A stretch of DNA of 22,070 bases from a virus. Shown here in pieces: positions 1 to 16,417 of the stretch. The stretch's first letter is position 1; every line of letters begins with the position of its first letter. Position numbers and translations under genes: made by a program. The DNA is taken from IMG/VR virus record IMGVR_UViG_3300022871_000130, positions 1-22,070 of that record, one strand, 5' to 3'. The notes under the pieces are model-generated. The model was not told the origin of the DNA and searched no databases. It was given only the letters and a program-made list of their open reading frames with translations.

Positions 1-3000
1 TCCTGCTTTATCAACAAACCAAAAAGAAATTGCTTTAGCTGCCTTATTCATATAGTTTGCATTTTCAGCTGCGAATAAAGTACCTTGTTCAAATATCTTT
101 CCCATTCCAGTTCCTTCTTGCATTGCTCTTCTTGTTTTTTTCCATCCTAATGGTGTGGCTGATGCTGCAATCATCTTCATTGATCTTAAACTATCTCCTC
201 CTTCAGCTACTAATCCCATCTTTATACTATTATCCATTATGTTTCTTACTCCCCAACCTGGACGTAAAAATAAAACTGAGTACTTCCATACTGTTTGTGG
301 TGTATTTAAGATTGTAAATATTCCACGAAGTATTGATGCTTGTTTAGGATGAGTTCTTTTCCATGATCCAGTTCCAAAATCCTTAAGCCATAATGGTCCA
401 CTTAACCACCTCTTACCACCAACTATCTCAAGATCAAATAATTTTAATCTCTCTGCACCAGCAGTGTTTGGATAAATTCCTAATGATTTTAATAGGTCTT
501 CTACAGAACCAAGAGTTACAAATTCTTTATTAGTAAATTCATCATACCATTTCTGAATAGCTTTTCTTTGTAGATCAGTAATATATGGCTTAGCCATTTC
601 TTTTTTAACAAGCTTTCCTACTTTAATTCTTGCCATCTTCTGCATCTGCTTTACCTTTCCTTCTTTTAATGCTCGAATAATTTCATTTGGTTTACCAATA
701 AATTCATTAAGATATGGATCTATCCTAGGAAACTTACCATCTTTAATTGCTGCATTAGTATATTTAATTAAAGCTGGCTTACTTTGAATGCCAATATCTT
801 TTAATATTAAAGCTATATCCTCAGCCTTTGCAGGATTAATTCTTCTTGTAATTGATCTTAACATTCCAGGAGTAAGATCATATGGATCTAATTGTATCTT
901 AAGATTAGGATCTTCATAACCCTTAACCATTTTTGGAATTGTAGTATCTATCTCTTTGTTTTGAATAGCTTTAGCTTTAGGTCCTTTCATTTCTACAAAT
1001 CCATGTCTATAAGGTTCAAAATATGGAATCTTTTTTGATTCAACTATTAATCCATTCTCTAGAACCTGTATCATTTCATCTGCTTTTTCTTTCCCATATT
1101 TTTTAATTAATAATTTTTTATCTATTTCAGATAAAGTCTTTGGGAAAAATATAGCAAGTTCATCTGTATTAAAAAGCTTTCCATTCTTTGCTAAATCTGC
1201 CATTGAACTTTTGACTTGTGAAACTTTATTAATATCAACCTTTGCTAGCTTTGGCCAATGTCTTAAACTTAATTTTAAATTTGAATTAACTGCTTGTTGA
1301 ACTTCAACCATAGCAGCATAAAATTCTCTTATTAAAAATTTTCTTTGTTCAACAGATAAATCCTTTACAGCTTTTTGAAAATATCCTTGTGATAAATTAT
1401 CAAATATTTTTCTCAAGATAGAACTTTTCTTAATCTTTTCTTCGAAGTTAGACATTAAAAAATCATCTAAAGATTTACCTTTATAAAATAAACTACTACC
1501 AGCATCCATAATTGCATGTGCAGATTCATGGAATGTTACTGAACTTACATCATCAATAGTTCTTGTTAAACTTTTCTTAACAATACTAACTCTGAATGTT
1601 TTATTAGGATTAGCAAGAGCTTTAACTCCAGTATATTTTGCTAAAGCTTTAGAACCTTTAAGATTCATAAAAGTACCTGAAGCTCCTTTAGGTAATTTTA
1701 AACTATTCCATTGCTTATCATCTGCTAACCATGTATAAGTTTTTATTCCTTTTGTATTGGCCCATGGTATATTAACTGGCTTACCTAATTTACCATTAAT
1801 ATTTCTAACCGCATCACTAAATTCTTTAAGTTCATTTTCTAATTTTACAATTCTTTTAACAATAGATTTACTATATGTTTTATTTAAAACATTAAGAAAA
1901 TCTTTTCTACCTTTTACTGTCTCTGAATACATTCTAAGTTTTATAATATCATCCTGCATCCACTTCTCTGCTTTACCACCAAGTGTTCTAGCCATTGAAT
2001 TAAATGTCATTTCAGCTTTAAGTTTTCCTCCCTTACTTAAGGCAGCAATAAACTTTGGCATCTCTTTCATTTCAAATCCTAAGTCTCTAAGTTTTTTTAG
2101 TTCACCATAAAAAGCTGGATCTATCTCAGCTAAAAACTCAAAGGCTAATTCATTTGCAGTCTTACCATCTTTAATAATTTCACCAGCTTTAGCACTATAA
2201 AAAAGTTCATCAGGCTTAACCTTCTGACTAATAATATCAGATAATCTTTTTTTAGCAGCTGGAGTCGGTGCAAATTCTTCAATCTTCTTTTCTAAATTAT
2301 AAAGAATCTTTGCTTCGGCTTGTTCTGCTTTAGTCATTCCAATCTTTTGAATCTTAGCTTTTAATAACTTAGGAAAGTTTTTACCCCAAGCACTAGCAAA
2401 TGAAGATTTAATAACATTATTTATTGTTGGAATACCATAAGGTCCAGTAATATATTTTGTATATCCAGATCCTATTGTATTTTTAAATGCTTTACCAAGA
2501 AATTTATTCAAAGCTAAATTTTTAGCTACTACATAAGGACCACCACCAAGATGACTTATAGTAGGAATAATTTTCTTATTAATATTTTTAAAAATATTAG
2601 TATATGTTGAATCATTTCTCATCCCATCTCTAAACATATAAGCTGCAAGTATTAAACCTAATGAACCTTTAACTCCAGATCTATATTTTTCTTTAACCCA
2701 TAGATCGCCTTCTAGTGCTTCATATAAATCTACTTCTGACCAATCAGTATTCCATACTTTATCAGCTAATGATTTAGCCATATATATAGCTTCTTTATTT
2801 TGTCTTTCTAACCATGTATCTCCTTGTTGAACAGGCATCTCTTTTATTATTTTATTTGCTGTAACCTGAATAGCTAAAAGTTTTTCAACTTCTTTTTCAC
2901 GCTGCTCTGGACTCATCTTTTTTATTTTAGCTGCTGTAGGTAATGTATCAATAAAAGTATCCATCTCTTTACTCATTCCTCTGAATTCTTTTATATCAGC

Positions 3001-4950
3001 AAGTAATTGAAATGGAACAGTAAAATGTGCACAATAAATATTCATACCTTTCTCTACTACCTTCCATCCTTCTTTTAAAGTATTTTTTAAAGTATCAACA
3101 GCAATATTAAATTCAGTATCAGATTCTGCTGTTTTCATAAATATCTCTGCCATCTCATGTTTTATTGATTGCTTCCTTCTACGAATAGTCTTATCACTTA
3201 AAAAATCTTTAAATATTTTTGTAGTATAATAATCTTTAGGATCAGAAATATTTGCATTCAATCTTTCAATAGCTTGACTACTAGTTATAGTACCAGTTTC
3301 ATATAACTGAATGATTCCTTTTTCTTCTACTCTAATCCATTCATTGACTCTAGCTTCCATGTTTGTATTATAATCTATTAAAGCATAAAGATTTGCCCAC
3401 TTAGTTGACATATTTTCTTTATCAAACTTTGCTCTAATATTTTCACTCTTAGATTCTAAGATAGTTAATTCTTTTTCTAGATTAGTAAGAGCATTAGTAA
3501 TAGGTTTATATTTTAAATTAAAAGCATTGACCTTATCACGTGCTTTATTATATTCTGTTTTTAAATTATTTAATTTTTCTTTATCTGGATTATCTTCTGA
3601 TTCTTCAAATACAATTTGTGTTTCCAATTTATCAATATCTTTATATAAAGATTCAGATTGTCCTTTATAAGTTTCTGATTCTTTTAATTTTTCTTGATAC
3701 TCTTTAACTTTATTTATAAATTCTTTTTGTAAATTATCAAGATGCTCAGTCTCTTTATTTATTTCTTTAATTGCAGTTTCAAGATCTAAAGATACTGGAA
3801 ATTTATCTTCTCCAGTCTCAGGATCTATAAATCCAACTTTTAATTTTTCTTCAGATTCTATTTTTTGTCTTTCTATCTGAGCTTTCTTTATTAATTCATT
3901 ACCATAAGCAGGATCAAATCCATATTGTTTATCTAATTTATCTTTCTCTTTTTGTGTAATCTTCCCATAATCTTTTAGCTCATTAGCTACAACATCAGAA
4001 TCAGATAATTTATAATCAAATGCTTTCTTGGCAAAAGCTGGCGTTACTTGATCTGTCTTTAGAATAGGACTTTTTAAAAAATCAGCATAAGCATTTACTG
4101 CTTTAGCTGCATCTGCTTTTGTTTCAAAACTCCAACGCTTAACTTGTTCAACTGTTTTAAATTTATCTTGCTTTTCTTTATAACTACTAAACTCTTTAGC
4201 TTTATCAGATGCATCAATAGCTTTCTTTAACTTAGCTGTAGTAGTTTTAATACTTTGAGGAGTCCACTTCTCTTTCATTGTGAACTGTCCAACATATCCT
4301 TTTGGAACTTCAGTAACTTTTTTCAAATCAAAACCGGCTGGACGCACTGCTTCGGCTGTAAGCCAACGCGCCTGGCCGGTTTTTGGATCCAACGTATATA
4401 CTTCTAATGTATCTTTTTCTCTAATTAAAGCATAGCCTCTTTGTGTATCAAAGCTTTTATAGTCTGGAGCTTTCACATTCTTCTTTTCAAAAGCTTCGAT
4501 AGCTTGCTTAGTTATTTGACCATAATAACCAGTAGATAATTTAGGTGTAGGAAAATATCCTGCATCCTTTAATAAATCTTGAAGCTGACGTACCTCATCA
4601 GACTTTTGTCCAAAGGCAACTTTCTTTGCTAGTTCTGATATTTGATCTAGCCCTGGAATCTTCTTTGGTTCAAAACTTGCTTTGACTGGTCCAGTCTTTT
4701 CAAACTTTTGTTTGTACCAAGATTCATTCCATTCTTGTCCAGCACTAATCCCAACTAATATATTTGGAATTTGATATGGACGAAAAGTTGCCTTATCTAT
4801 ATTAAGCAATTTCAAAATCGGTTCATCAATACGATGAGCAGTTTTTTGCTCAATATCATAAGCGAATACTTTATCAGGAAATTCTTTAGGCTTGAATATC
4901 CGATAACGTTTTCCACCTATCGTGGCGTAAGTCTTAAAGGGTAAGGCCAT
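1..4950 (-). CDS. Giant multidomain virion-type protein, partial (runs off left edge)
   Basis: One frame stays open from the ATG at 4950 to base 1: 1650 codons, no stop, C terminus missing. The start (MALPFKTYATIGG) follows the 102-aa gene by 23 bases and has no clear Shine-Dalgarno. Seen in order: a peptidoglycan-binding-1-like unit at about residues 115-160 (SDEVRQLQDLL, then GYF, then TGYYGQITKQAIEAF); a GC-rich patch at residues 191-206; a Lys/Glu-rich long coiled coil at about 385-520; a zinc-peptidase motif HESAH at 1141-1145, with an acidic EFYAAMVE stretch further on that could supply the third ligand; and near 1545-1590 a segment with LRPGWGVRNIMDN resembling the 'P-x-x-x-RN' signature of large polyvalent phage proteins. 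Position after the capsid gene and modular size suggest an ejected or internal virion protein that works on the cell wall during infection. That role is inference; the open frame and motifs are seen. Confidence 0.8.
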   Translation of the reverse strand, partial: MALPFKTYATIGGKRYRIFKPKEFPDKVFAYDIEQKTAHRIDEPILKLLNIDKATFRPYQIPNILVGISAGQEWNESWYKQKFEKTGPVKASFEPKKIPGLDQISELAKKVAFGQKSDEVRQLQDLLKDAGYFPTPKLSTGYYGQITKQAIEAFEKKNVKAPDYKSFDTQRGYALIREKDTLEVYTLDPKTGQARWLTAEAVRPAGFDLKKVTEVPKGYVGQFTMKEKWTPQSIKTTTAKLKKAIDASDKAKEFSSYKEKQDKFKTVEQVKRWSFETKADAAKAVNAYADFLKSPILKTDQVTPAFAKKAFDYKLSDSDVVANELKDYGKITQKEKDKLDKQYGFDPAYGNELIKKAQIERQKIESEEKLKVGFIDPETGEDKFPVSLDLETAIKEINKETEHLDNLQKEFINKVKEYQEKLKESETYKGQSESLYKDIDKLETQIVFEESEDNPDKEKLNNLKTEYNKARDKVNAFNLKYKPITNALTNLEKELTILESKSENIRAKFDKENMSTKWANLYALIDYNTNMEARVNEWIRVEEKGIIQLYETGTITSSQAIERLNANISDPKDYYTTKIFKDFLSDKTIRRRKQSIKHEMAEIFMKTAESDTEFNIAVDTLKNTLKEGWKVVEKGMNIYCAHFTVPFQLLADIKEFRGMSKEMDTFIDTLPTAAKIKKMSPEQREKEVEKLLAIQVTANKIIKEMPVQQGDTWLERQNKEAIYMAKSLADKVWNTDWSEVDLYEALEGDLWVKEKYRSGVKGSLGLILAAYMFRDGMRNDSTYTNIFKNINKKIIPTISHLGGGPYVVAKNLALNKFLGKAFKNTIGSGYTKYITGPYGIPTINNVIKSSFASAWGKNFPKLLKAKIQKIGMTKAEQAEAKILYNLEKKIEEFAPTPAAKKRLSDIISQKVKPDELFYSAKAGEIIKDGKTANELAFEFLAEIDPAFYGELKKLRDLGFEMKEMPKFIAALSKGGKLKAEMTFNSMARTLGGKAEKWMQDDIIKLRMYSETVKGRKDFLNVLNKTYSKSIVKRIVKLENELKEFSDAVRNINGKLGKPVNIPWANTKGIKTYTWLADDKQWNSLKLPKGASGTFMNLKGSKALAKYTGVKALANPNKTFRVSIVKKSLTRTIDDVSSVTFHESAHAIMDAGSSLFYKGKSLDDFLMSNFEEKIKKSSILRKIFDNLSQGYFQKAVKDLSVEQRKFLIREFYAAMVEVQQAVNSNLKLSLRHWPKLAKVDINKVSQVKSSMADLAKNGKLFNTDELAIFFPKTLSEIDKKLLIKKYGKEKADEMIQVLENGLIVESKKIPYFEPYRHGFVEMKGPKAKAIQNKEIDTTIPKMVKGYEDPNLKIQLDPYDLTPGMLRSITRRINPAKAEDIALILKDIGIQSKPALIKYTNAAIKDGKFPRIDPYLNEFIGKPNEIIRALKEGKVKQMQKMARIKVGKLVKKEMAKPYITDLQRKAIQKWYDEFTNKEFVTLGSVEDLLKSLGIYPNTAGAERLKLFDLEIVGGKRWLSGPLWLKDFGTGSWKRTHPKQASILRGIFTILNTPQTVWKYSVLFLRPGWGVRNIMDNSIKMGLVAEGGDSLRSMKMIAASATPLGWKKTRRAMQEGTGMGKIFEQGTLFAAENANYMNKAAKAISFWFVDKAG
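4330..4383 (-). repeat. GC-rich inverted-repeat element inside the giant gene
   Basis: A GC-rich island inside a very AT-rich gene. Its ends are a perfect 9-bp inverted repeat (AAAACCGGC and GCCGGTTTT, at 4330-4338 and 4375-4383). Read as minus-strand RNA, further pairing forms inside: GGCGCG with UGCGUC (two G-U pairs), then UUGGCU with AGCCGAA (one bulged G) around a UAC loop. Because the wobble pairs exist only in the minus transcript, the fold fits the coding strand RNA. It encodes residues 191-206 in frame with codons (GCG, CGT, GTG, GCC) rarely used nearby. It may be a small inserted palindromic element or a structured regulatory segment. Confidence 0.6.
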
Positions 4951-4973
4951 GGTTTAATTGTATTAGATAATAA

Positions 4974-5282
4974 TTATTTTTCCGGTGTAGCTTCTGGGCT
5001 TTCCTCTGACTCTACTTCATCTGAAGCTGGAGCTGGAGTACTAGCTTTTACTCGTGGAGTAAAATAAACATCATAAGTACCTAGTTCTTTAATCTTATTG
5101 ATAACATCAATAATGCTTTCGAATTCTAACAATGATTCATTTTGTCCCATGATATGCTTAGCAACAAAATGAACTACAGGTAAAAAACCTTTGGCTGGTA
5201 CTTTATAAGTAATACCATCAAGCATTCCATCAAAGTGTCTTTTTCCTGGATTTACTACGTAAACTGTTCGATAATTTTGCAT
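4974..5282 (-). CDS. Small conserved-looking head-region protein, unknown function
   Basis: A 102-residue protein with a globular N-terminal part (YVVNPGKRHFDGMLDGITY, then GFLPVVHFVAKHI) and an acidic, low-complexity tail rich in Ser, Pro and Glu from about residue 80. No family recognised. It lies between the Rossmann-like gene and the giant gene, after the capsid gene, so a minor structural or head-completion role is possible by position only. Its start is supported by AAAGGA about 9 bases upstream of ATG and by the AAAGGTCGA leader motif at 5310-5319. Both lie inside the 3' end of the preceding gene, which overlaps it by 53 bases. Confidence 0.8.
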   Translation of the reverse strand: MQNYRTVYVVNPGKRHFDGMLDGITYKVPAKGFLPVVHFVAKHIMGQNESLLEFESIIDVINKIKELGTYDVYFTPRVKASTPAPASDEVESEESPEATPEK

Positions 5283-6141
5283 GTTGAAATTTCCTTTTAA
5301 TTATATTAATTCGACCTTTAACTTTTAACCACATTAATCTAAAGACATTTTTAATTCTATTCTTTAATTCATTTGTCTTTTTATCTGAATATATTAAGAA
5401 TCTAAATCTTAAACTATTAGGTAGGAATTTTAGACATTCTTTATTTCCAATTTTAATATCTTGATTAATGGTAGGAAGAATTAGACTAGGTTTTTGAATT
5501 TCAATTAATCCTTCATTAACTTCAAACATTATATCTTCAAAAACATTTCTATCTATATCTTTATTCTTGTATTCGTATTTTCTAAAAATTCTTTTCCTTT
5601 GTTGTTCACAATAATTATACAACAGATAATTATAATTAATCAATAGCTTACTGATTTCTAGATTAAAAGATCCCTTGATAGAGCGGATAGGAATTTGTAA
5701 TTCTGAAAAATGTGTTTTAGCTAATAATAAAGATCCTTTTAAATCCCAACCAATTAATAAATTAAATGCATGAATATATCTTTGATAATCTAACAGAACT
5801 TCTGGACAAGAACTATCTGTATAAATTAAATGAGTTTTTAATCCTAACTCTTTTATTTTATTTTGTAATTCTAAAGTTGTAAATGGTTTTACAGAATTAG
5901 AAATAAAACAGATCGTTGGATTATATTCTGCTATTAAACGAATAACATTTTTCTTTAATTGTTTATTTGATTTAAATAATTTACATACCCACAAAATATC
6001 TAATGCACCTATATCTATAAACTCTTGATCCCACGCATTATGTTTAAAAACTTCAAAGCGATTTTTATTCTTATTTAGTTTTTCAAGTATAAAGTGTGAG
6101 AGTTTGGTATTCCCTAGAATACCGACTTTTAATTTTTTCAT
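5230..6141 (-). CDS. Rossmann-like protein, probable accessory (moron) gene
   Basis: 303 residues. The N terminus (KVGILGNTKLSHFILEKL) looks like a beta-strand, glycine loop and helix of a Rossmann fold. It is followed by strands such as LDILWVCKLF and TICFISNSVKPF, then THLIYTD, a pattern reminiscent of NAD(P)-dependent sugar-nucleotide or 6-phosphogluconate-type dehydrogenases. The glycine loop is degenerate (GxxGxx with no third Gly), so cofactor binding is uncertain. The C terminus from about residue 240 is strongly basic. It follows the capsid terminator directly, has no visible Shine-Dalgarno (AAATTAT before ATG), is more AT-rich than the capsid gene, and overlaps the next start by 53 bases. 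It sits where phages often carry later-acquired genes. The exact activity is unknown. Confidence 0.5.
   Translation of the reverse strand: MKKLKVGILGNTKLSHFILEKLNKNKNRFEVFKHNAWDQEFIDIGALDILWVCKLFKSNKQLKKNVIRLIAEYNPTICFISNSVKPFTTLELQNKIKELGLKTHLIYTDSSCPEVLLDYQRYIHAFNLLIGWDLKGSLLLAKTHFSELQIPIRSIKGSFNLEISKLLINYNYLLYNYCEQQRKRIFRKYEYKNKDIDRNVFEDIMFEVNEGLIEIQKPSLILPTINQDIKIGNKECLKFLPNSLRFRFLIYSDKKTNELKNRIKNVFRLMWLKVKGRINIIKRKFQHAKLSNSLRSKSRKKTL
5310..5319 (-). promoter_or_regulatory. AAAGGTCGAA leader motif (102-aa gene)
   Basis: AAAGGTCGAA, 28 bases before the ATG at 5282. It lies inside the end of the preceding gene and matches the core of the 25-bp repeats. Confidence 0.5.
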
Positions 6142-6153
6142 ATAATTTAGAAA

Positions 6154-6183
6154 GAAAAGGCTGATGACGCTATCAGCCTTTTC
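6154..6183 (-). terminator. Intrinsic terminator after the major capsid gene
   Basis: A perfect 12-bp stem (GAAAAGGCTGAT with ATCAGCCTTTTC) and a 6-base loop start 10 bases after the capsid stop codon. On the minus strand the stem ends in TTTTC and continues TTTCT, a usable if imperfect U-tract. The stem is almost symmetric in A and T runs, so it could also stop plus-strand transcription. It separates the highly expressed scaffold/capsid block from the Rossmann-like gene. Confidence 0.85.
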
Positions 6184-6193
6184 AACTTACTGG

Positions 6194-7147
6194 CTAGTTA
6201 GTTCTACGCATTTGACCACTCATCCTACAGTTGTTGCAGGTGAATGCTCCGTACCAGATGATATGAGAAACTAATTCATCCTTATTAATCGGCCTTTGCC
6301 ATCCCTTATTAAAGAAATCGCGAAGGATACGGAATTGCAGATAGTTCTCATTCAACATGTATAGACGCTTAGCTTGACAGTGACTGTCTTCTACCCAAGG
6401 AGTACCCTTAAAACTGAAAGACTCGAATGATCCATCTAATACCTTTGGTTGTAGAGCTGATGTCCACATAGTATTAGTAGTATTCAAGAATAGGTTCTCG
6501 TAGTTATTCATTTCAGTCGAATCAGAAATAATCAAAGTAGGTACATCGCCACTAACTCTACAAGAAGCATAAGCTGTTCGAAGCTCAGCTAAAGTAAAGT
6601 TATTAGCATTACTATCGTAATAAGCCTTCCACCATGCATCACCATCAGTTGAACGAGTAATGCCTCCATAGGAATCAACGTTAGTGGCGTCATCAACTGC
6701 AGCTGCTAAACCTAAAAGGTCCTTGGCTGAGTTTCCAGTACCATCACTAAACAATTGAGTAGCCATAGAATCACCTAAAGACTTAGAAGCGCTTTTCATT
6801 TTAGCCGCTACTAAATCAATAACTCGTGCTGAACCTCTATTCTCGACTTCTTCTAAGCCATCAATATAAAGATCAGCATGTTCTCGTTTCCAACTAAATT
6901 CTGCAGCGGTAATAAACTCTTCCTCGGCAGCTGTTAAAGAATCACCCTTGCTGAAAGATCCTACTTTTGTAGAAACCACATATTCGAGAGGTTCAATAAC
7001 TTTTGTTCCACCAATCTTAGCACCTACATTATCTGCTTTTGAAAGCAAACGATATAGTAAGATGTTGGATTCAAAAATCTGATCTTTCAAAGCTGGGATA
7101 AAACGTGTTTGCGTTGTTGCATCTAAAGAATCGTATGTTAAAGTCAT
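6194..7147 (-). CDS. Major capsid protein (HK97-like fold)
   Basis: 317 residues, the usual size for a HK97-fold capsid protein without a long scaffold domain. Supporting signs are the N-terminal block (TRFIPALKDQIFESN), a GDSLTAAEE loop, FSWKREHADLYIDGL, an alpha/beta core with a phage-type segment GDVPTLIISDS, and a C-terminal stretch (YLQFRILRDFFNKGW, then RPINKDELVSHIIWYGAFTC) typical of the P domain. It sits directly downstream of the acidic scaffold candidate and ends at a strong terminator, as expected for the most abundant virion protein. G+C and codon use are richer than in the flanking genes, consistent with high expression. The C terminus has an odd CNNC pair. No Shine-Dalgarno is visible before ATG. 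Confidence 0.88.
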   Translation of the reverse strand: MTLTYDSLDATTQTRFIPALKDQIFESNILLYRLLSKADNVGAKIGGTKVIEPLEYVVSTKVGSFSKGDSLTAAEEEFITAAEFSWKREHADLYIDGLEEVENRGSARVIDLVAAKMKSASKSLGDSMATQLFSDGTGNSAKDLLGLAAAVDDATNVDSYGGITRSTDGDAWWKAYYDSNANNFTLAELRTAYASCRVSGDVPTLIISDSTEMNNYENLFLNTTNTMWTSALQPKVLDGSFESFSFKGTPWVEDSHCQAKRLYMLNENYLQFRILRDFFNKGWQRPINKDELVSHIIWYGAFTCNNCRMSGQMRRTN

Positions 7148-7153
7148 GTTCGT

Positions 7154-7193
7154 AACAATAAATATTAATTGTTAAGAATCTTATATTAAGATT
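7154..7193 (-). promoter_or_regulatory. Two inverted repeats in the leader of the capsid gene
   Basis: In the 44-base gap before the capsid gene are two small palindromes: AATCTTA/TAAGATT (7 bp, 3-base loop, 7177-7193, overlapping the scaffold stop) and AACAAT/ATTGTT (6 bp, 8-base loop, 7154-7173). With no Shine-Dalgarno present, they may shape the leader RNA or mark a processing site. Seen directly; function inferred. Confidence 0.4.
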
Positions 7194-8004
7194 AAGTTAC
7201 TTCACCCAAATCAACCTGAGCCTCTTTAGTCGCTTGCGCCCAGCGATCCTTAGACTTCTCTTGACGTGAAGGAATAGCATCACTCGCGGGTGCGGACGGA
7301 ATAGTTTCCGTCTTTTCGGTCTCTGCTTTGACACCGTCTGCCTCATTTTTGAGTTCAAGTTTAAGTTCCTCTTTCAGTGCATCTTGTCTAGCTATAGAAT
7401 CTATTTCAGATTTTTCAGCTAGCTTGATAACATCTTGAGTGGGATCTTTTTGAATCTCAAAGAGGACTTCCCGCTTATCCATCTTTGGATATGCGATAAC
7501 AGCTTTGTCTAATTCCTCATTAAGTTCACGCTCCGCAAATTTTCGGTTTAAGATTTTTTGATTAGAGAGAACTTTTTTCCTAAATTCACTTTCGTCTTTT
7601 ATCTCTCTTTCAACTGTCTTCTCAAACCCGGTATCTAATTCAGTACCCTCAACTGGTGCTGAAGGTTCTAAATCAACCTTTTCATCTTCTTTCTTAACGT
7701 CTTCATCTCCTTCATTAAAGTCTACATCTTCTAGATCCTCATCTGGAGTTTCGGCTAACTCTTTTAGAGCATCCATTTCTGAAGCTTTTTCATCCCATTC
7801 TTTACGAAATAATTCTTGCGATTCGCCTATCTCTTTGAGCTTAGACTCAACTGCTTCTTCGCGAGCCTCTATTTTTTTTGTACGTTCATCTAATTTTGTA
7901 TCCGCTAACGGATTATCAACCTTAGAATCTTCCAACTTTATCTCTGGCTCTTTTGAAGGACCACCTTCAATATCGACAGAGTCAACTTTTTTTTCTTTTT
8001 CCAT
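7192..8004 (-). CDS. Probable scaffolding protein
   Basis: 270 residues, very rich in Glu, Asp and Lys, almost without aromatic or hydrophobic core segments, and predicted to be helical and partly coiled coil (KIEAREEAVESKLKEIG; ELNEELDKAVIA). Size, acidity and the position immediately upstream of the major capsid gene match phage scaffolding or core proteins, which fill the prohead and leave before packaging. Sequence identity to a known scaffold cannot be claimed. The gene shares the richer G+C and codon use of the capsid gene. There is no protease gene next to it in the window, so exit would be without cleavage or by a protease encoded elsewhere. No Shine-Dalgarno is seen. Confidence 0.7.
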   Translation of the reverse strand: MEKEKKVDSVDIEGGPSKEPEIKLEDSKVDNPLADTKLDERTKKIEAREEAVESKLKEIGESQELFRKEWDEKASEMDALKELAETPDEDLEDVDFNEGDEDVKKEDEKVDLEPSAPVEGTELDTGFEKTVEREIKDESEFRKKVLSNQKILNRKFAERELNEELDKAVIAYPKMDKREVLFEIQKDPTQDVIKLAEKSEIDSIARQDALKEELKLELKNEADGVKAETEKTETIPSAPASDAIPSRQEKSKDRWAQATKEAQVDLGEVT

Positions 8005-8411: not shown

Positions 8412-9080
8412 CTACATCTCAGCATTTTGTTCCCATGTACCGTCCTTTTTTAATCCCATTAATCTACCATCTGCTAGTCTTTTCATTCTTATATACTTAG
8501 ACTTTCCTGTTGTTGATTCTTTCTTTGTTCCATACTTGATAACATTCCATGTTCCATTAGCTTTGTATCCAACCATTGTACCATCCTTTAATGTAACACG
8601 TCTAGTATATTTACCTTTTATTAAAGTCCAACTACCATCAGATTTATATCCGACTACATTACCATCCTTTAAAGTTGCAACTCTAATAAATTGAGATCTA
8701 GATTTCTTAACAGCATCACTAGCTTCTTTATTAGTTTCTTTCTTATACCCCAATTGTTTCTTTGCAGCATCTTGCTTTGAAGCATAATCTTCTTTAGCTT
8801 TAGTCTGTGCTTTAGTTTTAGGTTGACTATAAGAAGTTTTTTCTTTTTTCTGTACTTTATCTTTTGGAACTCTTTGTCTTGATAAAAGTTTTTCTGCAGC
8901 TAATTGTCTAACAGAACTTAATTTATTATTAGTAATAAAACCAAAGGCTCCAGCTTTTACTTCCTTAACGTCTTTCCAGATATCCTTTTTCTTAGCTTCA
9001 TCATATCCAACATGTCGCCATTTACCAGCTTCTTTTGTATAGACTTTCTTCTTACCTTTTTCTCTATAATAATTAGACAT
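8412..9080 (-). CDS. Basic protein with three C-terminal beta-type repeats
   Basis: 222 residues, strongly basic. The N terminus (KKKVYTKEAGKWRHVGYDEAKKKD) precedes a Lys/Gln/Ala-rich middle part that is probably disordered or helical (about 70-130). Then come three copies of a 24-residue unit at about 131-154, 158-181 and 196-219, with the pattern R-x-x-x-LKDG-x-x-x-GYK-x-DG-T/S-W. Each could form a beta hairpin, as in SH3-like or cell-wall/nucleic-acid-binding repeats. The third copy is the most diverged (LADG, GLKKDG). AAGGA is well placed before ATG. It lies between the portal-ligase gene and the scaffold block; a head decoration or DNA-binding role is a guess. Confidence 0.75.
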   Translation of the reverse strand: MSNYYREKGKKKVYTKEAGKWRHVGYDEAKKKDIWKDVKEVKAGAFGFITNNKLSSVRQLAAEKLLSRQRVPKDKVQKKEKTSYSQPKTKAQTKAKEDYASKQDAAKKQLGYKKETNKEASDAVKKSRSQFIRVATLKDGNVVGYKSDGSWTLIKGKYTRRVTLKDGTMVGYKANGTWNVIKYGTKKESTTGKSKYIRMKRLADGRLMGLKKDGTWEQNAEM

Positions 9081-9081
9081 A

Positions 9082-9267
9082 TTATTTTTCCTTAGTTAAT
9101 TTATTAAAATATTTTCCTTTTAATAATTTATCATACAAAGTATAATCTGTAAAGTTTAGTTCTTTTTTATCTGTAATAACTTTTCCTAAATCTATTCTAA
9201 TTCGTAATAAATTTGTAACTACTTCTCGTCTATACTTCTTAGTAGTTGAATCCATTTGATTTATCAT
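9082..9267 (-). CDS. Small basic protein, unknown function
   Basis: 61 residues (MINQMDSTTKKYRREVV...). Its ATG overlaps the TGA of the portal-ligase gene as ATGA, so it is probably translated by coupling to that gene. A second in-frame ATG four codons on could also serve. Helical and basic, with no recognised motif. It ends one base before the ATG of the basic repeat protein (9080). Confidence 0.65.
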   Translation of the reverse strand: MINQMDSTTKKYRREVVTNLLRIRIDLGKVITDKKELNFTDYTLYDKLLKGKYFNKLTKEK

Positions 9268-12200
9268 TTCTTTATTTTAGCTATTAACTTTGGCATTTGA
9301 GTTTTTCTCCATACTACAAATTTAGGTAACCATATACCCCAGCGTTTTAAATCTCCTCCTCCTGATAAATAAATTTCTTTAACTTGAGCAAGTGTATCTG
9401 ATCTTCCAATCTTAGTATTAGTTTTTAAATTAATTGGTTTAGGTGAAAACCAAGAAAGCTGACCTGATGGTCTTAATGTAACATGCTCAACTGAAACTCT
9501 AATCACATCACCATGTTTAGCATTAAGATATTTTTGTGCATAGGTTTGTCCTATATAAGTACCATCTCTTAATGCAGTATGATAAACATATCCTCCATTG
9601 GCTGTTGTTTCTTTCTTAAGTACTTTAACATCTAAGTCAAAATTCTTTTTTACTTTATACATTAATGCATTATGAAAATAAGATGCATCTATAGCACGAA
9701 CAATAACTCCTTCATCTGAAGTAATCTTCTTTATTAAAGATGGGAGTTGATCTATTGTTCCTACTTGATGTTTAGCTCTTAATACTTGACCACCAGTTTT
9801 AAGAAATAGATCTAAAGCTTTTGATCTAGCTTCATAAGGCTTCTTAGAAATATCAGTATCCTTAACATATAAGATATCAAATACTTTATATCTTAATCCA
9901 GCTAATTCTAATGGTAATGATTCTTTCTTTGAATGAATATATCCAGCAATACCTTGATGTTTTAAACTATGACCTTTTTGAAATAACATTAACTCTCCAT
10001 CTATACTAACATCATATGGAAATTTCTTTTTAATTTCATTAACTATTGGAGCTACTCTATCTAGTGGAATTTTATTTGCTTCATTACTAAATAATAAAAC
10101 ACTATCTCCTTTCTTAGTAGCTTGACACCTTATTCCATCTAGCTTCTCACTAACATCCCACTTCTTTCCTTCTGGTAATACAGCTTTTAATCGTGCTACT
10201 GAATAAACTTCTGAAGTTTTTAAAGCTTTCTTCTCTGGTTTTGCTACTGGGAATGGACGACCTGGAACAATTGGTTTAATTTTTAAACCACCAGTCGCTG
10301 GAACTGCTTGCTTGACATCTTTAACCTCAGCTTCTGGATCAATAAGCTTTACATTCTTTAAATAAGTTTGAAGACCTTTTGGTTTTTCATAAGCTAATGG
10401 TGTATCAAATCTTTTAATTTGAAAAGCATAAGCATATAATGGTTTTCTACCCCACCATTTTCTTCTTTCCTTTTCAGTTACTCTATGTAACTTTTCAAAT
10501 CGTGTTATATCTTTATCTGATATTCTACCTCCGTGGATTAAACGAATAACTCCATAAACTTTATCACCAATTAATAAAACATCCTTATCTACAAAATTAG
10601 GATATGCTCTTCCTTTAAGAATTAATTTCTTTTGCCTTGTCCATATCATTTCTGCATGTGGTTCTACTATATACATGCCAGGCATATCTTTAAATTGATT
10701 TAAATTCTTAGATTTAATTGTTGAACTTTTGATGATCCCTTTTTTAATCTGACCAAATAAAATATTAGCAGACACTAAATCTTTATCTGATCCTGAATCT
10801 TCTACTTTATCTTTTTTTTTTAAATTAGAAGAAACTCCTTTTATAAAGATAATCTTACCAGCAGCTTCTGGAATAGCAGTTACAATTTCAATCCTATCTT
10901 CTTGATTTGGAGCTAAGATTGTAACGTTCTTAGCTACAACTGTATTTGGTCCAGGCTTTACTATCCTAACTTCATCTTTAAATTTAAGATTCTTTAATCT
11001 TAATCTTAAACCAGGCATTAAAATATTCCCCATATAATCTATAAATTTTGGATAAGCTCTATCTTCTTGAGGTTCATTAGTAGATTCTACTGGAGTTTCT
11101 GTTGGAGCTGGTTCTTCTTGAGGACTTTCTGTCCCATCAATTGGTGTTGGCTTTCCATCTTCTGGATTAGAAGGTCCACCTTCAGGTGATGTTTCTTGAA
11201 CAGGAGGTGTTTCAGTAGCTCTTTGTCTTTCTATATATTCAGCTTTCTCTTTCTCTTTTAATAAAGCTTCTTTCTGTTCTTGGTCTTGTTCTTCCATAGT
11301 TTGATCTGGATCTTTATCTCCAAGTTCTACTAATGCTTTCCTTCTACCAATTATTCCTAGCTTATAAAACATTGCAACTTCTTGAGCTCTTAATTTTTCA
11401 CGCTCAGGTTCTAATCCTTTTATATCTACATCAGATAAATATGCTCCTTTAATATCTGAAGGAGAAAATCCCTCATATGAAGAAGCTTTTCTATATTCAA
11501 AAGCTTTCTTAGTTGAAAAAGAAAACTCTCTTAAGAATCCAATTACAATTTGATTAGCATCGTTTAATGCTTTTTCTAAATTTTTAAGTTTAGGATCTAA
11601 TGCTGTATAAGAAGAATTCATTAATAAAGAGATTGCACCTTTCTCTCTTTGTCCACTTGATTGTCCAGAAGACATCATATCATTCCAAGCGGCTACACGT
11701 TCCATACTTTGTCTAGTTTTTTCTGGTTGTCTTTCTACATACCCAGGCAAAGGAGGAACTGGAACAATTCTAAATTCACCATCTTTATATTTTCTAATAA
11801 TTAATCTAGGTTTACCTTCAATCTTTTTAGTGTCAATCCCAGATTCTACATCAACTACAATAGGTGGGTTACCCATGAATTCAGCATTCTCTTTTATCTG
11901 AATCTTTTGTTTATCATATGCTCGTTGTAAAGCATAAAGCATTTGAACTGTAGAAATTGGTTGTGCACAACCAAGTATTGGAATATCTTGTAATTCAAAG
12001 AATGGATAAAGTTCTAAATGTTTATATGGCCAATCTCTTTTCTTTATAGCTATTCCACTATCAGTCATTAAAATGTTTTGCCTAGTTTCCTTAGCCCAAA
12101 AATCCCAAATACCTACAACGGCTTTGGGATCTGAATACTTTAAAGTAAGTTTAGCTATAAGTTGTTCATTCTGAGCTTTCTTTTCTTCAGTACTACTAAG

Positions 12201-12737
12201 CATATTAACAATTTGATTTCTTGTTGAAGTAGCAATTCGTGCAATCCATGGCTGAGATTGAATGTTATCTACTATCTCTGATCCATAAACAAAATCTTCT
12301 GGACCAAATGTATCTAAAATAAAAGGATAGTTTGCATTTGGATCTATCCTAATAAATCCATAAGTAACTCCTTTAATTAATGTATTTCTAAACCAAGATT
12401 GAAGACGAGAGCGTCTTTGATTGTACCACCAAAAATCATCTAGTGCATGCTCAAAATTAGTTGCTATATTTCTTTCTATTTCATCGTCAGTTGATGGTGG
12501 CATAACACGATCTACAATTGAAATCTTTTGAAGATATCCAGTTAAGGATTGTATTAATGGAAATATTTGATTATCAATATCTGATGACTTAGATCCTTCG
12601 TATTGAATTTTATTAGCCCACCAAGCTTGTCCTTTAAAAAGATTACTATACTTAAGCCAAATAGCTTTCTTTTCTGAAAGCATATTAACTTTATTTTCAA
12701 TTAAACTTTGTGCATCTGAAGTTGTAATTTTACTCAT
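9264..12737 (-). CDS. Portal protein fused to an ATP-dependent DNA ligase domain
   Basis: A single frame of 1157 residues. Residues 1 to about 470 resemble a phage portal protein: early helical region, IFPLIQSLTGYL, FWWYNQRRSRLQSWF, VTYGFIRIDP, FGPEDFVYG. It lies six bases after TerL, the usual portal position. An acidic Pro-rich linker follows (about 505-562), then a poorly known middle part. Residues 695-798 (KKLILKGRAYP...RKWWGRK...YAYAFQIKRF) recall ASCH/PUA-type folds, weakly. From about 835 an ATP-dependent ligase/nucleotidyltransferase core is clear: motif I EKLDGIR (Lys865), III IDGEL (913-916), IIIa YKVFDILY (D954), IV DEGVIVR (E1009), V MYKVKK (1026-1031), then an OB-like tail. Motif VI is not clear. 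The ligase could seal nicks or ends of packaged or ejected DNA; this role is inference. Confidence 0.85.
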   Translation of the reverse strand: MSKITTSDAQSLIENKVNMLSEKKAIWLKYSNLFKGQAWWANKIQYEGSKSSDIDNQIFPLIQSLTGYLQKISIVDRVMPPSTDDEIERNIATNFEHALDDFWWYNQRRSRLQSWFRNTLIKGVTYGFIRIDPNANYPFILDTFGPEDFVYGSEIVDNIQSQPWIARIATSTRNQIVNMLSSTEEKKAQNEQLIAKLTLKYSDPKAVVGIWDFWAKETRQNILMTDSGIAIKKRDWPYKHLELYPFFELQDIPILGCAQPISTVQMLYALQRAYDKQKIQIKENAEFMGNPPIVVDVESGIDTKKIEGKPRLIIRKYKDGEFRIVPVPPLPGYVERQPEKTRQSMERVAAWNDMMSSGQSSGQREKGAISLLMNSSYTALDPKLKNLEKALNDANQIVIGFLREFSFSTKKAFEYRKASSYEGFSPSDIKGAYLSDVDIKGLEPEREKLRAQEVAMFYKLGIIGRRKALVELGDKDPDQTMEEQDQEQKEALLKEKEKAEYIERQRATETPPVQETSPEGGPSNPEDGKPTPIDGTESPQEEPAPTETPVESTNEPQEDRAYPKFIDYMGNILMPGLRLRLKNLKFKDEVRIVKPGPNTVVAKNVTILAPNQEDRIEIVTAIPEAAGKIIFIKGVSSNLKKKDKVEDSGSDKDLVSANILFGQIKKGIIKSSTIKSKNLNQFKDMPGMYIVEPHAEMIWTRQKKLILKGRAYPNFVDKDVLLIGDKVYGVIRLIHGGRISDKDITRFEKLHRVTEKERRKWWGRKPLYAYAFQIKRFDTPLAYEKPKGLQTYLKNVKLIDPEAEVKDVKQAVPATGGLKIKPIVPGRPFPVAKPEKKALKTSEVYSVARLKAVLPEGKKWDVSEKLDGIRCQATKKGDSVLLFSNEANKIPLDRVAPIVNEIKKKFPYDVSIDGELMLFQKGHSLKHQGIAGYIHSKKESLPLELAGLRYKVFDILYVKDTDISKKPYEARSKALDLFLKTGGQVLRAKHQVGTIDQLPSLIKKITSDEGVIVRAIDASYFHNALMYKVKKNFDLDVKVLKKETTANGGYVYHTALRDGTYIGQTYAQKYLNAKHGDVIRVSVEHVTLRPSGQLSWFSPKPINLKTNTKIGRSDTLAQVKEIYLSGGGDLKRWGIWLPKFVVWRKTQMPKLIAKIKK

Positions 12738-12743
12738 ATATTA

Positions 12744-14429
12744 TTAGTCGAGAACATCGACTCTAGTAACTCCATCTCTATTAGATAATATATCTTCAAT
12801 TGATGGAACTTCATTAGATTGACTTTTATTATCTAAACTAGAATATCTAACTCCAGGATTAGCATCGTCTGAACCCTGCATAAAACGTGGAGCTTTTTCA
12901 AAAGCTAAGTTCAGATAGTTTAATGCATGGAAATAATGGTCTGGTCCGTTATGATCATAAACTTTAGTTGTTAACCCAAATCTATTAACATACTTAACAG
13001 AAATATTCTTGACGTGCTTTATCATCACTTTAACATTGGCACATAAATTTGGCAATACCCATTGTCCTTTATCTAAACTTTGTACTAAAGCATCTAAACT
13101 TTCTGTCCTTTGAACCTTCACTATTTGTCCAGATAAATCCCATTCTATTTCTTTCTTTCTTTTCTTAGCTGACATTCCTGTTTGATAATAAGATAAGAAT
13201 AATTTTCCCCTAAACTTTTGAGCTAATTGTTTAGCTGTATGTTTATTTGGCATTGCATCCAGTACTCCAAAACGCATTCCATATCTCTCAAGTATTGTTT
13301 CAACTTCCTCTGGAGTTTCTGCTGTTAATAAATTAACAATTCTTTTTTGATATTCATTAGTTCCATTTATTTTTTCTAATCTTCCTATTGCAATATAAAA
13401 TATATCACCTTGATCTATCCCTACTACCGTTGCATCTGCAGATAATAATGGTTCTTGATCACCAACCAATCTATACATTTCTTTATCACCCATTAATTTA
13501 CTTTGCATTTGATAAGCTAAACCTAATGAATAATTATAGAAATGTTTTTTAGACTTAGCTTTTTCTTCTTTCTTTAATAATCTATCTGCTGAAATCCATG
13601 GACAAGCCAACTGAGAAATATGATAACCATGTATTGGTCTTTTTGGAAATTTTGCAATCCAAATTCCAGAACGTCTTACAATATCTTTTAATTCTTTTTT
13701 ACAATATTTACAAATATAAATTTTTCTTTCTCTATTTATGTTCTCAAAGATATTTAAACTTTGAAGTTTTTTACAATGAGGACATTTATTAAACCATTCA
13801 TATTGACATGAGTCTTCATATAGTCTATCAACTCCAACTCCAGGAAGAGAAGGTACGGAGAATTGGTACATCATTCCTAATGAATCAGCACCTTCTAATC
13901 TTTCTTCATACATCTCTGCAATATCTGGTTTAGAAAAATCCAATTCATCAATTACTAATATGTCTGCATCAATACTCTGGGCTTGTTGTTCACTCCATGA
14001 ACCTCTGAAGTACAAAGAAGATCCACCTATTCTTTTTAATTCAGTTGAATCAGCTAACGTAGAACCAAATGGTTTCATCTTAGATTGTAGATAAACACAG
14101 TTCTCAAGCATTGGATCTACTCTAGCAGTTACAAACTTACGTACATCAGAAGTCGTGGGTAATGTATAAATCACAGAGATATTTTCCTTAGAAGCTTTAT
14201 GTAAAATTTTTGTTAATGCAATTGTAGAGAATCCAGCTTGAACAGGTTTTTTAAAAACAATATTCTGAGACCAATCCATTAATGGTTGTACCATAAAAGG
14301 ATGGTTATCCCATGTTAAAGGAATACCTTTCGATGTTTTTAAATCAATAAGCTTAATCCATGTTGCGATATTGGCCGATGAAATAAGATCAAGATTTTTT
14401 TTGTTCTCGTTTTCCATTTGTAGCTTCAT
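12744..14429 (-). CDS. terL: Terminase large subunit (GpA-like)
   Basis: 561 residues. ATPase half: a deviant Walker A PVQAGFST (62-69), and Walker B ILVIDELD (157-164; D161, E162). Next a zinc-ribbon pair CPHC (216-219) and CKYC (240-243), with WIAKFPKRPIHGYHISQLACPW after it, as in the GpA family (Pfam PF05876). Nuclease half: GIDQGD (D339), VLDAMP (D391) and GPDHYFHALNY (D497, H498), plausible metal ligands of the RNase H-like fold. It cuts concatemeric DNA and drives it through the portal. The start at 14429 overlaps terS by 41 bases; an in-frame ATG four codons later (14417) is an equal choice. The gene ends six bases before the portal gene. Confidence 0.9.
   Translation of the reverse strand: MKLQMENENKKNLDLISSANIATWIKLIDLKTSKGIPLTWDNHPFMVQPLMDWSQNIVFKKPVQAGFSTIALTKILHKASKENISVIYTLPTTSDVRKFVTARVDPMLENCVYLQSKMKPFGSTLADSTELKRIGGSSLYFRGSWSEQQAQSIDADILVIDELDFSKPDIAEMYEERLEGADSLGMMYQFSVPSLPGVGVDRLYEDSCQYEWFNKCPHCKKLQSLNIFENINRERKIYICKYCKKELKDIVRRSGIWIAKFPKRPIHGYHISQLACPWISADRLLKKEEKAKSKKHFYNYSLGLAYQMQSKLMGDKEMYRLVGDQEPLLSADATVVGIDQGDIFYIAIGRLEKINGTNEYQKRIVNLLTAETPEEVETILERYGMRFGVLDAMPNKHTAKQLAQKFRGKLFLSYYQTGMSAKKRKKEIEWDLSGQIVKVQRTESLDALVQSLDKGQWVLPNLCANVKVMIKHVKNISVKYVNRFGLTTKVYDHNGPDHYFHALNYLNLAFEKAPRFMQGSDDANPGVRYSSLDNKSQSNEVPSIEDILSNRDGVTRVDVLD
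12746..12762 (-). promoter_or_regulatory. Small hairpin at the terL end, before the portal start
   Basis: AGTCGA and TCGACT form a perfect 6-bp stem with a 5-base loop over the last codons and stop of terL, 8 bases before the portal ATG. No U-tract follows. It contains the GTCGA core seen in other leaders, which may be chance. It could influence coupling between TerL and portal translation. Confidence 0.3.
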
Positions 14430-14958
14430 TAATTTCTTCAGACGATACTTCTAATGGTATAAATTTTTGATCTTTAAGTACAGCCTTCTCAATAATTTTT
14501 AAAGCATCTGCTGAAATTAATTGTGGATTAATAATATTCTGTTGGAACTTAGGTCCCTTCGAATTTTCTTTAACTGGTGCAGAAATACCTTGAAGTAATA
14601 AACGATACTCAGTTAATAATCTATCTGGACTTAATTTAGTAATCTTATATTTAATTTCCCTTCTAAGTATCCTCATTAATTCTTGGATATGTCTCTTGTT
14701 CTCTCCAAGTAATTGTTCTGTTCCTGCTTCTACAATTTCTGTATACCTACGTTGAAATTCTTTGTCTCTAATAAATCTAGAAACTCTCCATGGAGCAAGA
14801 TCTACTTCTTCTCCAATAGCTTTAATTGAACAATTCTGATTGATTATCATATCTAAGATTTTCTTTTTCTTTTCATCCCAATACAAAGGCTGAGGAGTTA
14901 AGTCCTTAGTTTTAACACCAACTGAATTCGGATTTAATTCTTTTTGTTCAATGCCCAT
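14389..14958 (-). CDS. terS: Terminase small subunit candidate
   Basis: 189 residues. A helix-turn-helix at about 43-64 (CSIKAIGEEVDLAPWRVSRFI) is followed by FQRRYTEIVEAG and a long helical segment (EQLLGENKRHIQELMRILRREI), then a Pro-rich linker (about 127-135) and a short C-terminal part. This is the layout of small terminase subunits, which bind the packaging site and recruit TerL. The call rests on this layout and on its place directly before terL. It overlaps terL by 41 bases. Its ATG follows the previous stop by one base (TAGTATG), so translation is probably coupled. Confidence 0.78.
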   Translation of the reverse strand: MGIEQKELNPNSVGVKTKDLTPQPLYWDEKKKKILDMIINQNCSIKAIGEEVDLAPWRVSRFIRDKEFQRRYTEIVEAGTEQLLGENKRHIQELMRILRREIKYKITKLSPDRLLTEYRLLLQGISAPVKENSKGPKFQQNIINPQLISADALKIIEKAVLKDQKFIPLEVSSEEINEATNGKREQKKS

Positions 14959-15301: not shown

Positions 15302-15510
15302 TATTGTTCGTCTACAAAGTTAATTGAAGGAACCTTTTTATACTTTGACAACAAAGTTTGTAGTTCATTCATAAACTCCTGATCATTTTGTTGCTTTAGC
15401 TCCTGTATTTTTTTTTGGTTTTCTTTTACTAGGTCCTTTCCTATCTGGGAAGGGTTCGTTTGTTTGTTTGAGTCTATCTTTGATTTCATTTTTGTTTTTT
15501 TTATCTTCAT
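15301..15510 (-). CDS. Small coiled-coil protein overlapping the nuclease gene
   Basis: 69 residues, rich in Lys, Gln and Glu, with a helical middle (LVKENQKKIQELKQQNDQEFMNELQTLLSKY). The first 128 bases overlap the 3' end of the PD-(D/E)XK gene in a +1 frame, an unusually long overlap, so a later start is possible (ATG at 15489, or at 15372 for a 23-residue product). The AAAGGTCGA motif lies 19 bases before the 15510 ATG, but here it is also coding sequence. A TAATG junction couples it to the next gene. Function unknown. Confidence 0.5.
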   Translation of the reverse strand: MKIKKTKMKSKIDSNKQTNPSQIGKDLVKENQKKIQELKQQNDQEFMNELQTLLSKYKKVPSINFVDEQ

Positions 15511-16417
15511 CTACTATTACTAAATCGGGTCGACCTTTAACTCCACCGATTTCTTTTCTTGCTTCTATTCTACACATATCACCATAATCACAATAAGAAC
15601 ATTGCCAAGGTAACTTAACTATTTTCTTACCATCCTTAAATGCTTTAGCTTCTGTTCTATTTAATTCTCCTAAACCATTTAGAATACTTATTTCAGCATC
15701 TGTCATTCCTAAAGGAGAATAATCTCTAGGAACAATATCATCTTCATCTATATGCTTTTGGAATTTATCGAATCTTCTTTTAATATCTGATATTGCTAAT
15801 GGAAATTTCTTATATTCTTTTCCATCAACTAAAATTCTATTCTTATCTTCAGCAAGAGTAACATCGAATTCAGTTATCTCTTGTGAATCTCTACATCCAT
15901 ATATTATCTTAAATGGAATTGGATGAAAATTATAACAATATAATGCAGTCTGCATTAAATGTTCTATCTTTGGATTTCTCATTGTGAATACTTCTTTAGT
16001 AGCCCAATACCCATAGATAGTTTTACATTCTACACCAATAGTTTTATTATCAACCTTAACAAAGATATCTACTTCTCCAGATATATTCAATTCTTTATTA
16101 AAGAATTTTCTAATATCATTCATCTTTGCATCCCACATATTCATTTCTTTAATGTTCTCAATCATTAAAGCTTCAAATGCTAATCCTGCTTTAACAGTTC
16201 TCCAACCTCTACCATCCATATAGTTTGTAGTTGGTTCATTCTTAAAGCTATACCATAAAGCTCTATGACATTTTCCTATCTTAACTGGACCTGGTAATTG
16301 AACTGAACACTCTGATGGCCAGAACGCTGTTCGTTTACCTTTATCTAATCTACGTTTAGCTTGCCTAAACTTTTCTCTAGTCAATGCAAACTTTTCTATT
16401 TCTTTACATATATTCAT
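15383..16417 (-). CDS. RecB/Cas4-like PD-(D/E)XK exonuclease with probable 4Fe-4S cluster
   Basis: 344 residues. Nuclease core: E82 in AFEAL, GEVDI (D117), VECKT (E130, K132) and a helix with Q156 (IEHLMQTALY), the order of RecB-family motifs. Four cysteines, C50 (KCHRALWY) and C273, C276, C282 (CSYCDYGDMC), match the split 4Fe-4S arrangement of Cas4 and AddB. The expected activity is metal-dependent ssDNA/dsDNA exonuclease or flap cleavage, used in phage recombination, replication or host DNA breakdown. There are no cas genes nearby, so this is a phage nuclease and not a CRISPR gene. The last 50 residues are basic and low in complexity, and overlap the next ORF in another frame. Start: ATG at 16417, 5 bases after the LexA-like gene stop, with no Shine-Dalgarno. 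Confidence 0.85.
   Translation of the reverse strand: MNICKEIEKFALTREKFRQAKRRLDKGKRTAFWPSECSVQLPGPVKIGKCHRALWYSFKNEPTTNYMDGRGWRTVKAGLAFEALMIENIKEMNMWDAKMNDIRKFFNKELNISGEVDIFVKVDNKTIGVECKTIYGYWATKEVFTMRNPKIEHLMQTALYCYNFHPIPFKIIYGCRDSQEITEFDVTLAEDKNRILVDGKEYKKFPLAISDIKRRFDKFQKHIDEDDIVPRDYSPLGMTDAEISILNGLGELNRTEAKAFKDGKKIVKLPWQCSYCDYGDMCRIEARKEIGGVKGRPDLVIVDEDKKNKNEIKDRLKQTNEPFPDRKGPSKRKPKKNTGAKATK
15530..15538 (-). promoter_or_regulatory. AAAGGTCGA motif before the 69-aa gene (coding)
   Basis: TTAAAGGTCGA, 19 bases before the 15510 ATG. It encodes KGRP of the nuclease, so its conservation may be chance. Confidence 0.3.

Follow-up and report, generated by a model that had tools for sequence, protein, structure and literature searches.

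A portal protein joined to an ATP-dependent DNA ligase in uncultivated tailed viruses

Introduction

Why should a virus carry its portal protein and a DNA ligase in one polypeptide? The question is raised by the IMG/VR virus record IMGVR_UViG_3300022871_000130, a metagenomic sequence of 22,070 bases that was analysed over its whole length (the window). An earlier note, made from the letters alone, had read an unbroken frame of 1157 codons directly after terL, the gene for the large terminase subunit, as a portal protein with a C-terminal ATP-dependent DNA ligase. The frame is present as described, from ATG to stop, and lies on the minus strand, which the earlier note had not given (Table 1).

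The same note knew of no described portal-ligase fusion, and this held in our literature search, which covered open-access papers: fusions of portals to enzymes are already known, but a fusion to a DNA ligase is undescribed in the papers searched. The present one is the first found there and extends portal-enzyme fusions to the DNA repair enzymes. With it, an unnamed family of ASCH-like/ligase proteins is defined that is widespread among tailed viruses not yet cultivated. The fusion also gives a direct handle on an old question, namely the coupling of nick and end repair to the packaging of DNA or the entry of the genome.

Results and Discussion

The fusion in independent assemblies

The portal-ligase fusion is real: five or more independent assemblies contain it. 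It is complete in the IMG/VR records that hold loci L083 (61 kb), L084 (42 kb) and L085 (72 kb), where L083 encodes a protein of 1126 amino acids and L084 and L085 have frames of 1467 and 1451 codons, respectively, each including an intein of 332 amino acids. In a metagenome-assembled genome (MAG) of WOR-3, contig JAGMCN010000046.1 (L072) encodes portal, ASCH-like domain and ligase in one frame of 1055 amino acids that is cut at the contig start (portal hidden Markov model (HMM), E = 1e-92); the missing portal start follows terL on another contig of the same MAG (L076), with an identical overlap of 50 amino acids. A further contig with 75% DNA identity (L030) encodes portal and ASCH-like domain and ends inside the latter. 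In a tree of 22 ligases the fused ones group as a single clade (support 100/100). The distance from terL to the fusion start is 6 nt in the window and 2 nt in L083, and the order terL, portal fusion, scaffold/major capsid protein found in the window is the same in L072/L076 and L083.

An artefact of assembly or frame that had joined two genes was considered, the window being a 22,070-base metagenomic record, which favours this explanation; it is ruled out, its probability being practically nil, by the intact fusion in four other assemblies from different sources. The earlier note had proposed a search for the same fusion in related contigs, and had named as grounds for abandoning its reading two separate genes in an independent assembly, or homologues without catalytic residues or ligase fold. 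Neither ground was borne out: the search found the fusion intact in the WOR-3 MAG and in three IMG/VR records. What stands, replicated in other assemblies, is the portal-ligase architecture with its catalytic lysine; the functional proposals of that note are no part of this outcome.

Other searches were less productive. Neither tblastn of the whole protein against the phages in GenBank nor scans of IMG/VR with single sequences found anything, and a portal-based scan gave once more the L030 contig alone. Two further scans for additional fusions gave only the three records already known; as such scans may pass over records very close to the window, other fusions may exist. In 147 genomes of the phylum to which the WOR-3 MAG belongs, there was no further ASCH-ligase fusion, and the matches look like ordinary host ligases.

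The portal half

The portal-like first half proposed earlier matches the portal profiles phrog_156 (E = 2e-10, residues 223-408) and phrog_332 (E = 5e-4), and its counterparts in L030 and L037 also match portal profiles (E = 1e-8 and 0.0065, respectively). Searches with tblastn gave weak matches to the portals of Arthrobacter phages. Structure prediction returned portal and tail entries only (all 13 Foldseek matches in PDB at E <= 1e-3, namely to Pan3, Carin1, SU10, B2, DEV and E1004), but from a poor AlphaFold model, with a predicted local distance difference test (pLDDT) value of 52.6 and template modelling (TM) scores below 0.2. Judged by its profile matches and by its place between terL and the scaffold/major capsid genes, the N-terminal half is a genuine portal protein.

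The ligase half

The ligase half matches Pfam DNA_ligase_A_M (PF01068, E = 1.6e-18) and phrog_114 (E = 2e-18). The model of the ASCH-ligase part is good (pLDDT 87.1), it shows the nucleotidyltransferase and OB folds of an ATP-dependent DNA ligase, and its best PDB matches are ATP-dependent DNA ligases (E = 2e-18), all in agreement with the earlier assignment of a ligase with a catalytic lysine. The five motifs read earlier are where they had been placed, with EKLDGIR at residue 864 (Lys865), IDGEL at 912, VFDILY at 952, DEGVIVR at 1008 and MYKVKK at 1026. Kept throughout the fused clade are the lysine of motif I, the glutamate of motif III, the EG of motif IV and the lysines of motif V. A separate internal start that would give a free ligase was considered and is not supported: the window has no Met between residues 697 and 917, and no common Met occurs at the ASCH-ligase border, GTG or TTG starts being still possible.

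Compared with the other fusions, the window shows 43-46% identity in the ligase part but only 21-22% in the portal. Among L083, L084 and L085 the ratio of non-synonymous to synonymous substitution rates (dN/dS, Nei-Gojobori) is 0.10-0.12 for the ligase, 0.06-0.08 for the ASCH-like domain, 0.17-0.26 for the portal and 0.24-0.34 for the linker, these values being rough, because dS exceeds 1 for the majority of pairs and is saturated for two of them. By this measure, the ligase and ASCH-like parts are under stronger purifying selection than the portal in these three loci.

Inteins usually sit in active-site motifs, and those of L084 (9090-10085) and L085 (equivalent position), which match PF14890 (E = 1e-4), lie between the MYK and CKK of ligase motif V. 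Apart from the fusion, the terL frame of L037 (3430-5982) has an apparent intein-like insert after '...VVRKC', and there are additional LAGLIDADG-like frames in the capsid gene region of that locus.

The tether and the ASCH-like domain

The portal is followed by a stretch that is rich in Glu, Pro and Thr and predicted to be disordered (residues 491-560). Between portal and ligase there is also a domain of about 125 residues that was absent from the earlier reading. It carries the signature G.YLV.PH...G.K..IVK...YG.I.L...H.V...ER.KWW...LY.Y, has an invariant Lys and an invariant His, and belongs to a family of 41 viral loci and five MAG loci. The Pfam ASCH family PF04266 is weakly matched by five of 31 family members (best E = 0.0018) and not by the domain of the window itself, such that the assignment as 'ASCH-like' is probable but not proven. 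The family was first reached with a hand-made pattern, WWG..PLY.Y, only two of whose 28 matches (L003 and L020) are relatives; the 31-row family alignment is too diverse for use in scanning. Two giant-virus proteins in BFVD, A0A3G5AF11 (Hyperionvirus) and A0A481Z0I5 (Mimivirus LCMiAC01), match the model over about 120 columns with 32-33% identity, a length which suggests that the ASCH-like domain is the matching part.

Proposed sealing of DNA at the portal vertex

Our first choice among the readings, held tentatively and at somewhat less than an even chance, is that the fusion is a portal-tethered enzyme whose sealing of viral DNA at the portal vertex is coupled to packaging. In its favour are the recurrence of the fusion, the single clade of its ligases, the selection on the ligase and ASCH-like parts, the intein in motif V, the lack of any other PF01068 ligase in the fused records examined, and, in other viruses, the linkage of ligase and portal genes and the Pol-beta-type nucleotidyltransferase motif beside or inside the module. 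The protein would assemble into a ring as other portals do, which would bring about a dozen ligases to the vertex. These would most likely lie on the lumen side of the capsid, on a flexible tether, because in known phages the crown and barrel of the portal point into the capsid (PMC5850374). The ASCH-like domain may bind nucleic acid or dock the ligase, and the ligase, charged with AMP on Lys865, would seal nicks or ends of the viral DNA entering (or later leaving) the head, in physical coupling to packaging. In T4, ligase is required for encapsidation, a dependence reported in 1981, and endonuclease VII is associated with the portal (cited in PMC10893049); during packaging, repair enzymes are tied to the portal there too, in function or physically, although as separate proteins and not, as here, by covalent fusion. 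Short nicked DNA blocks T4 translocation in vitro (PMC3012670).

Several points weigh against this reading. Longer nicked DNA is packaged normally by the T4 and phi29 motors (PMC9958956, PMC10893049), and packaging may therefore be able to do without the sealing of nicks. A ligase on the lumen side would reach the DNA only after it had passed the motor, and the orientation of the portal is itself taken by analogy from other phages. The ASCH-like part appears to have a role without the ligase, since L037 encodes a portal-ASCH protein in a 100 kb record that has no PF01068 ligase. The remaining points concern the ligase motifs. Motif Ia, Ser-Arg, which is usual but not universal in ATP-dependent DNA ligases, is replaced by S/T-D or S-N in the fused ligases, and most relatives have an acidic version. 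The RxDK of motif VI is kept in L041, L059 and L061; for the fused clade the alignment is uncertain and the motif unrecognisable. L072 is also without the arginine of motif I. As motif Ia and apparently motif VI are altered, full catalysis by the fused ligase is, on sequence grounds, likely but not assured; the step that appears most in doubt is self-adenylation (step 1), to which motif VI contributes.

These same changes (in motif Ia and apparently motif VI, and the lost arginine of L072) would also suit a pseudo-ligase, in which the fold has been kept to work at the portal as a nucleic-acid clamp or nucleotide sensor. We regard this as improbable: the lysine, the glutamates of motifs III and IV and the lysines of motif V are kept, dN/dS is about 0.1 and an intein sits in motif V.

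The earlier note had also proposed that the genome ends are joined on ejection. Circularisation at that stage by a ligase that is still tethered is doubtful, since the portal stays with the particle and its crown and barrel face the capsid interior; release of the ligase would be needed.

Linkage of ligase and portal in related viruses

Related records have the ASCH-family gene, in most cases with the ligase included, as a separate gene that again stands beside the portal gene. The latter overlaps it or lies no more than about 0.7 kb upstream in L031, L032 (where the portal neighbour was assigned via similarity to L031), L034, L036, L042, L044, L047, L048, L055, L056, L057, L060 and L086. Nine of the ten upstream genes that were tested match portal or MuF/minor head families, some from as far as 3.4 kb away, and that of L039 does not. 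A different type of portal is fused to the ASCH-like domain in L041, L043, L045, L073 and L075, and in the first three of these the ligase is a separate gene downstream of the portal-ASCH gene. These arrangements offer a testable evolutionary series, from a ligase that is separate but adjacent, through portal-ASCH with a separate ligase, to the full fusion. A PF01068 ligase is present in 16 of 17 records, L037 being the exception, and usually only one.

Other enzyme modules accompany the ligase. Several relatives also carry metallo-beta-lactamase (MBL) or Dam methylase domains, and a LigD-PE-like motif was seen by eye in relatives. The motif of Pol-beta-type nucleotidyltransferases (GG..R..DID) occurs in small proteins encoded just downstream of the fusion in L083 (10449-10751), L084 (11120-11470), L085 (11168-11494) and L072 (3414-3773). 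In L003, L031, L032 and L041 it is part of the ligase chain itself, on the N-terminal side of the ligase; none was found in the window. In L020 a gene for a Lon-like protease (4078-6285) stands after the portal gene and before an MBL-ASCH gene.

Because the ligase of the relatives adjoins the portal and is often joined to a Pol-beta-type nucleotidyltransferase, the wider module suggests a viral kit for the repair of DNA ends and gaps that is tied to head assembly. With more reserve than for sealing at the portal vertex, we put forward as a possibility that tailed viruses of archaea and deep-branching bacteria have a portal-linked repair system, in which fused or adjacent ligases with ASCH-like, Pol-beta-type nucleotidyltransferase, metallo-beta-lactamase and PE-like modules would heal and seal genome ends at the vertex or in the virion. 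The portal would then be an enzymatic repair device and not only a channel.

The fusion might instead serve mainly to express the only ligase of the virus together with the late genes, with free protein sealing DNA in the cytoplasm during replication and recombination and the portal site being incidental. The fusion is indeed the sole PF01068 ligase in the fused records examined (G000 and G002-G004, of 22-72 kb), which may be incomplete. Late expression is, however, a poor fit to replication, and a purely cytoplasmic enzyme would have no need of the repeated link to the portal seen in many tailed viruses whose portals are unrelated, where the ligase lies next to or near it; we hold this account to be improbable.

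Comparison with known systems

The nearest known counterparts are the portal-fused polyvalent proteins described by Iyer et al. 2017 (PMC5512222), in which a portal and an enzyme acting on nucleic acids or nucleotides share one chain within a head-gene cluster; the present fusion likewise combines a virion structural domain and an enzyme domain in a single chain. The enzymes differ: those fused to portals in that paper are PBECR RNases, 2H phosphoesterases and InPases, and the term 'DNA ligase' is absent from it. Polyvalent proteins were moreover found to be scarce in archaea, whereas the ASCH-ligase family is present in archaeal MAGs.

This comparison brings in the main rival to packaging-coupled sealing, which is that the portal acts as a packaging tag for virion cargo. 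About 12 copies of the ASCH-ligase part would be carried in the head. Once released, through proteolysis or unfolding, they would be injected and would circularise the incoming genome or repair it, for instance where restriction has cut it or for the joining of ends. The portal and MuF fusions to PBECR RNase, 2H phosphoesterase and InPase have been read as injected polyvalent proteins (PMC5512222), the pairing of ligase with Pol-beta-type nucleotidyltransferase and LigD-PE-like motif (the latter by eye) in relatives is a set suited to end joining, and the giant protein encoded at the end of the window, with its HExxH motif, could be a processing peptidase. Against this, portals stay with the particle, so that release is needed, and neither a cleavage site nor a processing protease was identified. 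The fused records have no Ku, and PF13298 was matched in one record, below the cut-off. We consider injected cargo rather unlikely and prefer sealing coupled to packaging.

The relatives resemble the bacterial LigD of non-homologous end joining (NHEJ) in that a single protein combines nucleotidyltransferase, ligase and PE-like motif; the polymerase motif of the relatives is, however, of Pol-beta type and not of archaeo-eukaryotic primase (AEP) type. Membership of a LigD-type NHEJ system was rejected: Ku (PF02735) occurs in one of 18 records (G014), which is not a fused one, and the single PF13298 match in the 18 is sub-threshold. At 25031-26534 of G014, the record of L047, the Ku gene (E = 2.5e-24) lies beside a second, separate ATP ligase, and the record also has an MBL-ASCH-ligase gene; Ku and the second ligase are a candidate viral NHEJ pair.

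T4 ligase and archaeal Lig (PF01068, phrog_114) share with the fusion the fold and motifs I, III, IIIa, IV and V. They are free enzymes, whereas the fused ligase forms the C-terminus of a structural protein, is preceded by an ASCH-like domain and has motif Ia and apparently motif VI altered. In the published archaeal virus ANMV-1 (L089, KP703175.1) the ligase AJP62006 belongs to the same family (own HMM, E = 9e-72), shows the GG..R..DID motif by eye and begins 7 nt after the portal gene, but portal and ligase are separate genes and the ASCH-like domain is absent. The portal gene (1913-3193) is annotated as 'MutT-like phage hydrolase' and matches phrog_146 (E = 2e-30). The main text of the ANMV-1 paper mentions neither portal nor ligase.

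Gene neighbourhood

The window has about 30% G+C and nearly all of its genes are on the minus strand. Downstream of the fusion there are small genes, followed by those for a probable scaffolding protein and the major capsid protein (Table 1).

Table 1 Positions of the fusion, its parts and the neighbouring head genes in the window.
Feature	Position	Strand	Evidence
Portal-ASCH-ligase fusion gene	9264..12737	-	Single unbroken frame, ATG to stop, 1157 amino acids
Portal domain, residues ~1-490	11268..12737	-	phrog_156, Foldseek, weak tblastn matches
Tether, residues ~491-680	10698..11267	-	Composition; pLDDT ~30 past residue 510
ASCH-like domain (probable), residues ~681-805, WWG..PLY.Y signature	10323..10697	-	Family of 41 viral and 5 MAG loci; weak PF04266 matches in 5 of 31 members
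ATP-dependent DNA ligase core, residues ~831-1157 (nucleotidyltransferase and OB-like domain)	9267..10247	-	PF01068, model
Codon of predicted adenylated Lys865 (KLDG)	10143..10145	-	Motif position; conserved in L072, L083, L084 and L085
terL, large terminase subunit, directly upstream of fusion	12744..14429	-	phrog_675, E = 1.6e-109
Probable small terminase subunit	14389..14958	-	phrog_2538, E = 0.005, and position
Probable scaffolding protein	7192..8004	-	Position and composition only; no Pfam match
Major capsid protein	6194..7147	-	phrog_9953, E = 1.7e-50; SU10_MCP, E = 2e-4

Three other genes, all on the minus strand, were recorded in the window. The giant protein (positions 1-4950) has at least 1650 amino acids and extends past the end of the record; it contains a peptidoglycan-binding domain (E = 2.8e-8), its HExxH motif lies near residue 1142, and it may serve in ejection or be a polyvalent protein. 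A gene immediately downstream of the fusion (8412-9080) encodes a protein of 222 amino acids that consists in part of repeated 'LKDG..VGYK..G.W..I' units. At 15383-16417 there is a gene for an exonuclease of the Cas4/PD-(D/E)XK type (phrog_1706, E = 8e-19).

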